The notes under the pieces: model-generated
The model's database searches: none
Seen by the model: the letters and a program-made list of their open reading frames with translations, nothing else
Told to the model about the DNA's origin: nothing
Source of the DNA: Chroococcidiopsis sp. TS-821
GTDB lineage: Bacteria > Cyanobacteriota > Cyanobacteriia > Cyanobacteriales > Chroococcidiopsidaceae
Reading direction: 5' to 3'
Length of the DNA: 64,000 nucleotides
NCBI RefSeq assembly: GCF_002939305.1
Contig: NZ_MVDI01000007.1
Span: forward strand, 124,001-188,000
Made by a program: the position numbers and the translations under genes
In this document: piece by piece, positions 38,399-44,081 of the stretch
How positions within the stretch are numbered: the stretch's first letter is position 1
Layout: the number at the start of each line of letters is the position of its first letter

Positions 38399-39775
38399 AT
38401 GCCATTGCCTGCATCTGAACCTACACCTCCTGCTATATTGTGTCGCCAGGAACGTCGCTTGGCAGGTAAACAACTGCGACAACAGGTAGCGCGATCGCTC
38501 CATAGCTGGTGGCAACCAACGCGCGATCGCCCCGATCCCATTGACTTAATCGAACAATCTAATCAGCGCCGCATTCCTGAACTTGTTCCAATTCGCCACT
38601 GGCGGATGATGCAGTCTCCCTTTACCTTTTTGCGTGGTAGTGCGATCGTCATGGCAGCAGATTTGGCGACGACTCCGACTACGGGTATTATGGTGCAAGC
38701 TTGTGGGGATTGCCATTTGCTCAACTTTGGCGGCTTTGCCACTCCAGAACGGAATCTCATTTTTGACCTGAATGACTTTGATGAAACGCTGGTTGCTCCC
38801 TGGGAATGGGATGTAAAGCGCCTAGTCACAAGTATTGCGATCGCTGGACGAGATCTCTGCTTATCGGAGCGTGATAGTTTAGACGCAGCACAAGCAGCTG
38901 CCCAGGCGTACCGATTGGCGATCGCCCGCTACAGCGAAATGCGAACCTTGGAAGTTTGGTATGCACGACTCGATGCTCACTTACTGATCGAACACGCTCC
39001 TGATGAAGATACCCGCCAGCAATGGGCACAAATGGCAACTAAAGCCTTTAACCGAACGTTAGATCGAGCAGTGTCGCAGTTGACGGAACTTGTCGATGGG
39101 CAGCGTCGCTTAATTGACAATCCACCGTTACTTTATCATCTACCCAACCAGAAGGAATATTTTGAGGAAATCCAGGCGTTGTTTGAGGAATATCGAGATA
39201 CCCTCCAGGTCGATCGTCAGTTTTTACTCGATCGCTATCGTCTTGTAGATGTCGCGCTCAAAGTCGTTGGCGTGGGTAGTGTAGGTACTCATTGCGGTGT
39301 CGCATTACTGCTCGATGACAATGACGATCCCCTATTGTTGCAATACAAAGAAGCGAGACCCTCGGTACTAGAACCTTATGCAGGCAAGAGTTTGTACCCC
39401 CACGAAGGACAACGAATTGTGAGTGGACAGCGGTTGATGCAGGCAGCTAGTGATATCTTTTTGGGATGGACTAGCAATTCGCAGGGGCAGGACTTCTATT
39501 TTCGTCAACTGAAAGATATGAAGACTTCTATCAAATTGAAAGGTATGTCTGCTCGTAGATTAGAAGATTACGCCGAGATTTGCGGGGCGGCTTTAGCCCG
39601 TGCCCATGCCCGTACAGGCGACTCGGTTTTAATTAGTAGCTATTTGGGTAAAAGTGATGCTTTCGATCGAGCTGTGACGGATTTTGCTGTAACTTATGCA
39701 TATCAAGTTGAGCAAGATTATCAAGCATTGGTAGAAGCTGTGCGATCGGGGCGAATAGAAGCAAAAGCAGGTTAG
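38399..39775 (+). CDS. DUF2252 family protein
   Basis: A 458-residue protein with the family signature RRIPELVPIRHWRM, then CGDCHLLNFGGFATPERNLIFDLNDFDETLVAPWEWDVKRL in pattern and LLQYKEARPSVLEPY. DUF2252 has a kinase-like fold with similarity to aminoglycoside phosphotransferase relatives; its substrate is not established. Start ATG 38399. No functional tie to neighbours is evident. Confidence 0.88.
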   Translation: MPLPASEPTPPAILCRQERRLAGKQLRQQVARSLHSWWQPTRDRPDPIDLIEQSNQRRIPELVPIRHWRMMQSPFTFLRGSAIVMAADLATTPTTGIMVQACGDCHLLNFGGFATPERNLIFDLNDFDETLVAPWEWDVKRLVTSIAIAGRDLCLSERDSLDAAQAAAQAYRLAIARYSEMRTLEVWYARLDAHLLIEHAPDEDTRQQWAQMATKAFNRTLDRAVSQLTELVDGQRRLIDNPPLLYHLPNQKEYFEEIQALFEEYRDTLQVDRQFLLDRYRLVDVALKVVGVGSVGTHCGVALLLDDNDDPLLLQYKEARPSVLEPYAGKSLYPHEGQRIVSGQRLMQAASDIFLGWTSNSQGQDFYFRQLKDMKTSIKLKGMSARRLEDYAEICGAALARAHARTGDSVLISSYLGKSDAFDRAVTDFAVTYAYQVEQDYQALVEAVRSGRIEAKAG

Positions 39776-39812
39776 AGTTACTTCAGTTGTTGCTCAAAGC
39801 AGTTTAGGATAA

Positions 39813-39962
39813 TTAAGCACCCTCCCAAATTGCGACAACTGCAAAGACTAAAAACAGCAACCCACCGATCGCACTCAGCAACCGTTCAGATACAAAGAAG
39901 GTTTTGTCACCTAATTCGGAAACGGTAATTAGTAACAAACCTGCGGTAAATGCTGTTAACAC
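39813..39962 (-). pseudogene. GDT1/Mnx manganese exporter reduced to 49 codons
   Basis: Codons 1-24 (VLTAFTAGLLLITVSELGDK then TFFV) match the N-terminus of GDT1/UPF0016 cation exporters including the ExGDK metal motif; the next 25 codons (SERLLSAIGGLLFLVFAVVA then IWEGA) match the extreme C-terminus of the same family. The roughly 150 residues between, with the second ExGD motif, are missing, yet the reading frame is preserved. Start is GTG 39962 behind a strong GAGGAGG site. In cyanobacteria the full protein (Mnx) exports Mn2+ to the thylakoid lumen or periplasm. The product cannot form the usual six-helix transporter. Confidence 0.8.
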
Positions 39963-40299
39963 TCTCAGCCTCCTCAGAATTTACAACAATACATCTGAGT
40001 GAGCCTGATGAGCATAACAACATTTCACCAAGCCACAGCAGATGTGAACTTAGTGAAGGTCTCGCCTCTCAAGCTTAAGTGTTTAGTTCAGCTTAAACAT
40101 ATTACAGAACTTGCTACCCAAACCAGGCAAATTGCCAGTGTGTTGATTTGGGTGACTGATTACTTGAGTAACCAGCAGCGAGTGGGACGAAGTCTGCGCT
40201 CGGTCATTCGGTTGAACATATTCATGAATTGATGTAGGCGATCGCCCCCGTGTTGGTTGTCAGTGAGGCGCAATCGTCTGCGAATCTGCTACTTGGGTC
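39963..40299. other. gap with an unsupported 75-codon plus-strand frame
   Basis: A plus-strand frame from about ATG 40008 to 40232 has no ribosome site and no recognisable protein. The gap mainly holds the upstream region of the shrunken GDT1 gene and the TGTTTA palindrome. Confidence 0.5.
40080..40099. promoter_or_regulatory. TGTTTA-N8-TAAACA inverted repeat
   Basis: TGTTTA (40080-40085) and TAAACA (40094-40099) form a perfect dyad 118 bases upstream of the GDT1 remnant and just behind the Crp/Fnr-type regulator gene. Two six-base half-sites with an eight-base centre would suit a helix-turn-helix dimer; the link to that regulator is inference. Confidence 0.35.
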
Positions 40300-40863
40300 T
40301 TACGAGCAATGCCACAAAAAACCGCGCTTACCTAATCGGCTGATTGCACCTTCTTGCTCAAACTGCTGTAGTAAGCGTGTCACGCTTACTCTTGTGGTGC
40401 CGATCGCATCTGCCATGTCTTGGTGCGTCAGACGGATCTCGACCAGAATACCCTGCTTCGTTTCGCTGCCAAACTTATGAGCTAGCCATTTCAAGAATTG
40501 CCATAGACGTTGTGGAACTTGTCCACTGCGCATCTGAAGTAGCTCTTGCATTTGATAAATGTGAGACAGCATCACCTGATTGAGACTTTCAAACTGTCCA
40601 AAATCTAGAGTATGCGCCTTTACATCTACTAAACACTCAATTTGGCAAGGATAAATACGAACAAGGGGCTGACCAACAATATCTCCTGTACCCCATAAAC
40701 CCAGGGGGATCGCTACTCCATTTTCAGTAAAAGTCAATATGCGAACGGCTCCGGTTTCAATTCGCCAGAGTGTAGTTTTGCTAAGTGGCAAAAACTCTCG
40801 CCGTTTAAACGTTTGGATCGCTGAATAATCGTATTGAGACAGCATGAGGCTAGTATTAATCAT
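40300..40863 (-). CDS. Crp/Fnr family transcriptional regulator
   Basis: A 187-residue regulator: cyclic-nucleotide-binding-like beta barrel (about 20-110; LPLSKTTLWRIETGAVRILTF) and a C-terminal winged helix with LTHQDMADAIGTTRVSVTRLLQQFEQEGAI (about 144-173). The effector pocket lacks an obvious cAMP phosphate-binding signature and there are no Cys clusters, so the signal is unknown. It sits inside the MgtE/GDT1 cluster, 10 bases after the preceding minus-strand gene, and may regulate it. Confidence 0.88.
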   Translation of the reverse strand: MINTSLMLSQYDYSAIQTFKRREFLPLSKTTLWRIETGAVRILTFTENGVAIPLGLWGTGDIVGQPLVRIYPCQIECLVDVKAHTLDFGQFESLNQVMLSHIYQMQELLQMRSGQVPQRLWQFLKWLAHKFGSETKQGILVEIRLTHQDMADAIGTTRVSVTRLLQQFEQEGAISRLGKRGFLWHCS

Positions 40864-41305: not shown

Positions 41306-41698
41306 CTAATCGCCACAGTCATTCTTATCAACCATTGCAGCAGGTTGAGTCATCAAATTACCAAACAGCCAGTGGAGAGTTATCTGAAATTCTGCCCTCA
41401 GATTTGCCATCAATTGTTCTATCACCTCAGTAGGCAAGCCAGCTAACAGACGATATCGCCTTTCGGGTTCCATTGCTTCTAGCACCCCAATTAACTCTGA
41501 TGCTTCCATCGCTTGGAGTATCTCAGCCTGTTCCTTTGGTGGTAAATCATCGAGAACGATTGCTGCCAAACCTTCTCCTAAAATCTGAAGTGCCAATATG
41601 CGCTGCTTTAGGTCTTCGGTCAATGTCCGTGCTGTTGCAGACACACTGAGGTAACTAGCAAGCTGTTGTGTAAAAGCTTGAAACGGCATTTGAGACAT
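41306..41698 (-). CDS. stand-alone MgtE N-domain-like protein
   Basis: A 130-residue soluble protein whose residues about 28-95 (LQILGEGLAAIVLDDLPPKE, then QAEILQAMEASELIGVLEAM, then EPERRYRLLAGLP) have the superhelical repeat pattern of the MgtE_N domain, in which acidic helices bind Mg2+ and gate the channel. No CBS or membrane domain follows. It could bind Mg2+ or MgtE itself. The position two genes downstream of mgtE on the same strand supports a shared function; the exact role is not known to me. Confidence 0.7.
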   Translation of the reverse strand: MSQMPFQAFTQQLASYLSVSATARTLTEDLKQRILALQILGEGLAAIVLDDLPPKEQAEILQAMEASELIGVLEAMEPERRYRLLAGLPTEVIEQLMANLRAEFQITLHWLFGNLMTQPAAMVDKNDCGD

Positions 41699-42707: not shown

Positions 42708-44081
42708 TCAGGTTTGAATGTCAAGCAGCAAGGATACTAAATAGAAATAGAGCAACAGCCCAGTGAAGTCTTTAATCGTTGTAATAAAGGGATCGGCAGC
42801 TGGACCATGATCGAACCCCACTTTCAACAAAAGCCAGGGTAGCAGTGCCCCTAAGACCGCTGCCAGGCTGATAACTGCAAACAGGGAAAGCCCGACAGCC
42901 AAGCCGAGTTGGGGTACTCCGTTGGGGGCTCCCTGCCACACGTAGGCAATTAAACCACCTGCAACACCCAAGATTGCACCCATGATTACACCAATGCGGA
43001 ATTCTCGGAATAAGTAGCCGCCGTAATGCCGGATGTCAATATGCTGCCATGCCAGTCCACGAGCAAAAACAGTCGTTGATTGAGTGCCCACATTTCCACC
43101 CATATCCATGACTACCGGAATAAAAATGGCAACGACAACAACTGCTTCCAAAACTTCCTCAAAGTTTTGAATCACACCCCCCACAATCATGCCGCCAATT
43201 AGGGTAATAATTAAACAGACAATCCGCAGCTGAACAGCATAGCGAATGGGACCCCGAACCAGTTTTTCGCTCCAAGCTCGATCGCGACCTAGTAGATTAC
43301 CGACCCCAGCTTGAGCAAGGGCAGTAGCGGAGGCTTCTTCTTCAATCAGGTCAATCACGTCATCAAAGGTAATATCTCCCACCAACCGTCCTTCGCTATC
43401 AAGTACAGGAATGGCAGGCAGATTATAATCTTTAAGCAAACGGGCAGCTTGCATTTCAGGAGCAGTAACGCTGATGGCAATGTCTTTCCCGTCGATTAAC
43501 CGCTCAATCGGCATTTCAGGATTGGCTTTAATCAAGCACACTGTGCGAATAAAGCCGCGATAGAATCGCTGTTTATCAATTACAAAGACCATATCCAGTT
43601 CATCATCCCGCAAGTTTGATTCCCGCACCAAAGCGAGCACCTCCCCTGCTGTGGTTGTTTCTCGTACTGCCAGGTAGCGCAGGCTCATCCGCCGCCCCAC
43701 ACTGCCTTCGGGATAGCCTAGCAGCAAGTCAACAGCTGCACGCGATTCAGGACTAAGTTGGCTTAACAGTCGTTTGGTGACTTTGGCAGGCAGTTCTTCA
43801 AACAGCCGCACCCGCTGCTCTGGATCGAGCGCTTCCAAGAGCGGTACTATTTCGGGGTCTTCCATAGCTCGAATCAGATCTGCCTGTGCATCAGGATGGA
43901 GAAATTCAAACACAGCGATCGCCTTATCCTTCTCTAATAATCGAAACGCCAGCACCCGCTTTTTTGGTTCAATTTCGAGGAGCGATCGCACCAATTCAGT
44001 CACGCTCAGCTGATTTGCCGTTCGTTTTGCGGCTCCAAGTGCCTTGGGTCGCAGTAAGTCATTTAGTGCGTTGCGTTGCAT
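42708..44081 (-). CDS. mgtE: magnesium channel/transporter MgtE
   Basis: A 457-residue Mg2+ channel. Order: superhelical N domain (about 22-125), two CBS domains (about 130-255; LPAIPVLDSEGRLVGDITFDDVIDLIEEE), linker helix, then five membrane helices (about 280-455) with the conserved pore region PVVMDMGGNVGTQSTTV and DPFITTIKDFTGLLLYF. Mg2+ bound between the N and CBS domains closes the pore. Start ATG 44081 with AGGAG site 7 bases upstream. It is the core of the surrounding cluster; its neighbours include two proteins that resemble its own N domain. Confidence 0.94.
   Translation of the reverse strand: MQRNALNDLLRPKALGAAKRTANQLSVTELVRSLLEIEPKKRVLAFRLLEKDKAIAVFEFLHPDAQADLIRAMEDPEIVPLLEALDPEQRVRLFEELPAKVTKRLLSQLSPESRAAVDLLLGYPEGSVGRRMSLRYLAVRETTTAGEVLALVRESNLRDDELDMVFVIDKQRFYRGFIRTVCLIKANPEMPIERLIDGKDIAISVTAPEMQAARLLKDYNLPAIPVLDSEGRLVGDITFDDVIDLIEEEASATALAQAGVGNLLGRDRAWSEKLVRGPIRYAVQLRIVCLIITLIGGMIVGGVIQNFEEVLEAVVVVAIFIPVVMDMGGNVGTQSTTVFARGLAWQHIDIRHYGGYLFREFRIGVIMGAILGVAGGLIAYVWQGAPNGVPQLGLAVGLSLFAVISLAAVLGALLPWLLLKVGFDHGPAADPFITTIKDFTGLLLYFYLVSLLLDIQT

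Follow-up and report, generated by a model that had tools for sequence, protein, structure and literature searches.

In the available text of PMC7020235 and PMC11649195, Mnx is described as an exporter that protects Synechocystis from excess manganese. Mnx, also called SynPAM71, is a two-motif protein of the UPF0016/GDT1 family (PF01169); half-size UPF0016 proteins, Hmx1 and Hmx2, are treated in the available part of PMC11649195, where ManSR is the only Mn-dependent regulator said to have been identified in cyanobacteria. The available text of PMC7380456 reports a bacterial screen in which a UPF0016 gene was under yybP-ykoY control in 328 of the 333 strains having a member, so yybP-ykoY leaders on such genes are known in principle. 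The word riboswitch is absent from the available text of PMC7020235.

We examined a window of 64,000 nucleotides in which a 49-codon GDT1/UPF0016 (Mnx-type) remnant occupies positions 39813–39962 of the minus strand. The locus lies on contig C7 of a 5.23-Mb genome of 72 contigs (G000), taken to be cyanobacterial since named cyanobacteria make up most of its relatives. The pieces of the remnant match the start and the end of an Mnx/SynPAM71-type gene, and both its orthologue in a second genome of the genus (G001) and a paralogue on contig C2 of G000 are PF01169 proteins with two motifs; in the window copy, 156 of the 205 residues are gone, one motif with them, and the score falls below the Pfam cut-off. 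The leaders of intact relatives match the yybP-ykoY manganese riboswitch (RF00080), sharing GAAGGGGAGTAGC and a conserved 3' strand, whereas the window leader has lost its 5' part and yields none. We put at about 90% the probability that the locus is a young pseudogene of a redundant Mnx-type paralogue, carrying two lesions relative to G001.

G000 also has a pair of half-size GDT1 genes side by side (L002, G000:C12:34848–35347), of the same family as Hmx1/Hmx2 and given those names by resemblance alone. These are complete one-motif domains of 103–131 aa, unlike the window ORF, which consists of the joined ends of a two-domain gene.

The 49-codon frame and the 468-bp deletion

The reading frame is where the first-pass annotation had placed it, on the minus strand with a GTG start codon, and encodes 49 aa. 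The strong ribosome-binding site noted there was likewise confirmed: GAGGAGG (39969–39975, minus strand) stands 6 nt ahead of the GTG, and the motif is also found in G001. The product scores 24.8 bits against PF01169 (GDT1; E 2.8e-5), below the curated cut-off of 27. Its best outside match is the G001 orthologue, at E 9.1e-10, so the likeness to the family is not due to chance. The first motif, ELGDKT, is present and the second absent, leaving one of the two copies that full-length members have.

The comparison genome G001 was drawn from a set with one genome per species. Its contig C23 carries an intact gene of 205 aa at the corresponding place, convergent with the same DUF2252 gene and scoring 154.3 bits against PF01169. 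Window positions 39000–39893 match G001 C23:58264–59162, and positions 39894–40179 match C23:59631–59916, both at 90% identity (88% over the downstream piece of the ORF, 39813–39893). These two pieces abut in the window and are separated by 468 bp in G001. An intact, syntenic orthologue with 90% and 88% DNA identity flanking the gap establishes descent from a full-length GDT1/UPF0016 member.

The deletion junction, at 39893/39894 on the minus strand, lies on a codon boundary, and the 468 bp (156 codons) of G001 absent there encode residues 24–179 of 205, among them those of the second E-x-G-D-[KR]-[ST] motif (EWGDRT in G001). Retained are codons 1–23, the last 26 codons and the stop. The internal in-frame deletion of a GDT1/Mnx gene proposed by the first-pass annotation is thus borne out by G001. 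Its joining of N-terminal and C-terminal pieces of one family was right, with a split of 23 and 26 codons rather than 24 and 25, and its loss of about 150 residues was right in kind, the exact count being 156. An in-frame join is by itself a 1-in-3 event. Since G001 is diverged from the window by about 10%, it locates the ancestral break points approximately.

Short direct repeats at the junction, raised in the same annotation, were not found: the longest word common to the 30 bp around both G001 break points is 5 bp, and it lies off the junction. Deletion through direct-repeat recombination is therefore unsupported; judged solely from this lack of repeats, end joining without homology would be the most likely mechanism. 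Origin from a half-size gene was ruled out, the retained pieces being both ends of one 205-aa G001 gene at the same locus.

The truncated leader

A second lesion, missed by the first-pass annotation, lies upstream of the ORF. The leader of the G001 gene matches RF00080 with 33.5 bits (E 5.9e-6), below the Rfam gathering score of 45. The window leader is 90% identical to it as far as 40179, where homology ends; beyond that point G001 has GAAGGGGAGTAGC and the window has unrelated bases, so the window is without the P1 5' strand, the GGGGAGUAG loop and everything that lay upstream of them. The P1 helix and 5' loop characteristic of yybP-ykoY leaders are accordingly lacking, and what remains (39976–40179, minus strand, from alignment to the G001 leader and the consensus fold of 26 leaders) is the 3' portion of an aptamer of the yybP-ykoY type, with the downstream hairpin. 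Searching the window leader region with Rfam gave no match at E<=1, and the 13-base motif GAAGGGGAGTAGC, with up to 3 mismatches allowed, did not occur within 39962–40300. The ribosome site was retained because it lies outside both deletions.

In place of the upstream part of the leader, the second break point has 22 unassigned bases (40180–40201), and the truncated leader now adjoins a stretch (40202–40266) that is 75% identical to G001:C2:333–392. From 40305 on, the window is 94% identical to G001:C2 from 497 on. About 125 bases separate the leader from a Crp-type gene in the window, against at least 620 bases on C23 plus 496 on C2 in G001, these being separate contig records whose colinearity with the window we infer. 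By eye, a 23-base word was seen near both G001 contig ends (the end of L161 on C23 and the start of L160 on C2), in opposite orientation. This arrangement hints that a mobile element fills the gap between the two contigs in the assembly, so G001 does not fix the ancestral spacing between leader and Crp-type gene.

The consensus fold came from 28 hand-picked loci; both GGGGAGTAG (exact) and G-N-GAGAC-Y-TTCAC were required within 260 bases, which left 26 leaders and removed L046 and L059. Those two elements are accordingly invariant by construction. Neither the flanking GAA nor the C that follows GTAG entered into the selection, and the GAA of the P1 5' strand was present in 26/26 aligned leaders. 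In the RNAalifold consensus, GAAGG, before the GGGGAG loop, pairs with CCTTC at the 3' end. P1 was seen only in this consensus and was not the best structure when the intact G001 leader was folded as a single sequence. Single-sequence folding z-scores were −3.71 for the window leader and −2.75 for the G001 leader, with the downstream hairpin in both.

Nothing promoter-like was found when the new upstream stretch was scanned. A new promoter beside the truncated leader was rejected: the sole minus-strand promoter-like site (40472–40445) is inside the Crp-type gene, and 1.0 was expected by chance. A terminator at the leader hairpin was rejected as well, the scan giving none there and one terminator-like site inside the ORF (39872–39857), at chance level.

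Manganese exporter genes and leaders among relatives

The second full-length mnx that the first-pass annotation had proposed looking for is present, on contig C2 of G000. It encodes 205 aa with two GDT1 stretches (PF01169, 156.3 bits), and its leader matches RF00080 at 29.0 bits. Both full-length types are represented in G001 by orthologues, 61–62% identical to each other. A 32-protein tree places the G001 counterpart of the window gene together with L072, L074 and L011 (97/91); the C2-type proteins form a separate clade (100/99).

The short form was seen in none of the other genomes and loci searched. Matches from 39 further relatives, G000 itself set aside, included no counterpart of it; 29 of the 39 had a match at E<=1 with no open frame below 71 aa. 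None was found either in 18 other genomes of the family, a set overlapping the 39. We surveyed 151 loci, finding a match in 134 and none in 17; collapsing identical proteins left 108 distinct ones. At least 200 aa were present in 104 of the 108, and all 104 had two motifs; the four short proteins are L009, L020 and L136, each with an internal stop, and L131, which runs off its contig. At none of the 151 loci did a one-piece match begin by residue 8 and extend to at least residue 46.

Within 500 bases upstream of mnx, GGGGAGTAG was exact in 88 of the 108 and had one mismatch in 11 more (examples of upstream regions are L036, L037, L038, L040, L062, L072, L074 and L162). The other nine lack it at up to one mismatch; most of these are full length, and L011, from the same tree clade as the G001 orthologue, is among them. 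A missing aptamer end alone is therefore no proof of a dead gene. That most cyanobacterial mnx genes examined have a yybP-ykoY type leader is a side result of wider use. RF00080 matches at nine distinct loci scored 21.1–33.5 bits, and because all ten matches reported were below the gathering score, standard annotation may overlook these leaders. One RF00080-like leader (L046, G020:C208; 29.3 bits) stands at a locus with no mnx match, in a genome where the mini-protein found none at E<=1.

A probable recent pseudogene and the alternatives to it

We propose that the lineage of G000 and G001 possessed a pair of full-length Mnx-type genes, both preceded by a manganese riboswitch of the yybP-ykoY type. 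In the window lineage, one of them would have lost most of its membrane helices, together with the second cation-site motif, to the 468-bp in-frame deletion, and a further loss would have taken the 5' end of its leader and the DNA upstream. Members of the GDT1/UPF0016 family are considered to require both motifs for transport, so the 49-residue product would be inactive. The native promoter was probably lost along with the front of the leader, and a leader deprived of the P1 5' strand would no longer switch with manganese and would be stuck in the alternative hairpin. The loss would be tolerated because the C2 copy remains. Relative to intact relatives, then, the locus carries disabling lesions in both gene and leader, the leader bearing the second wound of a decaying copy; as far as sequence can tell, the remnant most likely has no function and is what is left of a spare manganese exporter that was lost recently. 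Counting against a pseudogene are the intact frame, GTG start and ribosome site.

Could the locus be full length after all, with 468 bp dropped in assembly? G000 is a draft in 72 contigs, which leaves room for an error at one or both break points, yet losses of this kind usually need repeats, and apart from the 5-bp word near the G001 break points, no repeat of at least 12 bp brackets the junction in the window (a single pair of 12-bp direct repeats, spaced 564 bp, lies elsewhere). A collapse would also leave the independent lesion in the leader unexplained, and it would have to produce a join that keeps the codon frame, with diverged codons unlike those of every other locus seen. We consider an assembly artefact improbable.

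The retained codons of the window differ from those of G001 by 13 synonymous base changes, and a further 5 changed bases fall in 3 non-synonymous codons. Neutral change would be about 73% non-synonymous, giving P(<=5 of 18) = 1e-4 under a simple model, and because 5/18 is far below the neutral share, most of the divergence arose under codon constraint. A gene that stayed whole until a short time ago would give this pattern, and so would a constrained mini-protein, so it cannot decide between them; it is consistent with the very recent deletion that the first-pass annotation offered as one of two options. The other option was a retained mini-protein of one to two helices; we considered it as a membrane peptide that spans once, carries one ExGDKT motif and has taken on a new role, such as an action on the intact paralogue. 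The low count of non-synonymous codons fits this, as do the preserved frame, start and ribosome site. AlphaFold2, run without an alignment, gave the 49-aa product one continuous helix over residues 2–48 (pLDDT 93.9, pTM 0.52), which is a weak pointer in the same direction since a lone hydrophobic sequence folds so readily. Set against these are the lack of any counterpart in the 39 relatives, the overlapping 18 family genomes and the 151 loci, the loss of the second motif, the truncation of the leader switch, and a new upstream stretch with no promoter-like site. A T-to-S replacement near residue 30 is the one change that is clearly new in the window lineage, as judged by eye from L072, L074, L011 and L018, and it cannot demonstrate selection. 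This option thus found no positive support, and we think it very improbable. Its more specific form, in which the peptide modulates or poisons the intact C2 Mnx and is expressed free of manganese control now that the riboswitch has lost its front end, we likewise hold to be highly doubtful. The damaged leader and the absence of counterparts favour a recent lesion over a constrained mini-protein.

For annotation, the pseudogene reading carries the lesson that a neat in-frame mini-ORF with a good ribosome site may be the deletion scar of a redundant paralogue. Elsewhere in the window, an ORF of 130 aa on the minus strand (41306–41698) has an MgtE_N domain only and lies near a full MgtE-type transporter gene (42708–44081, minus strand); this could be another metal-transporter gene reduced to a fragment.
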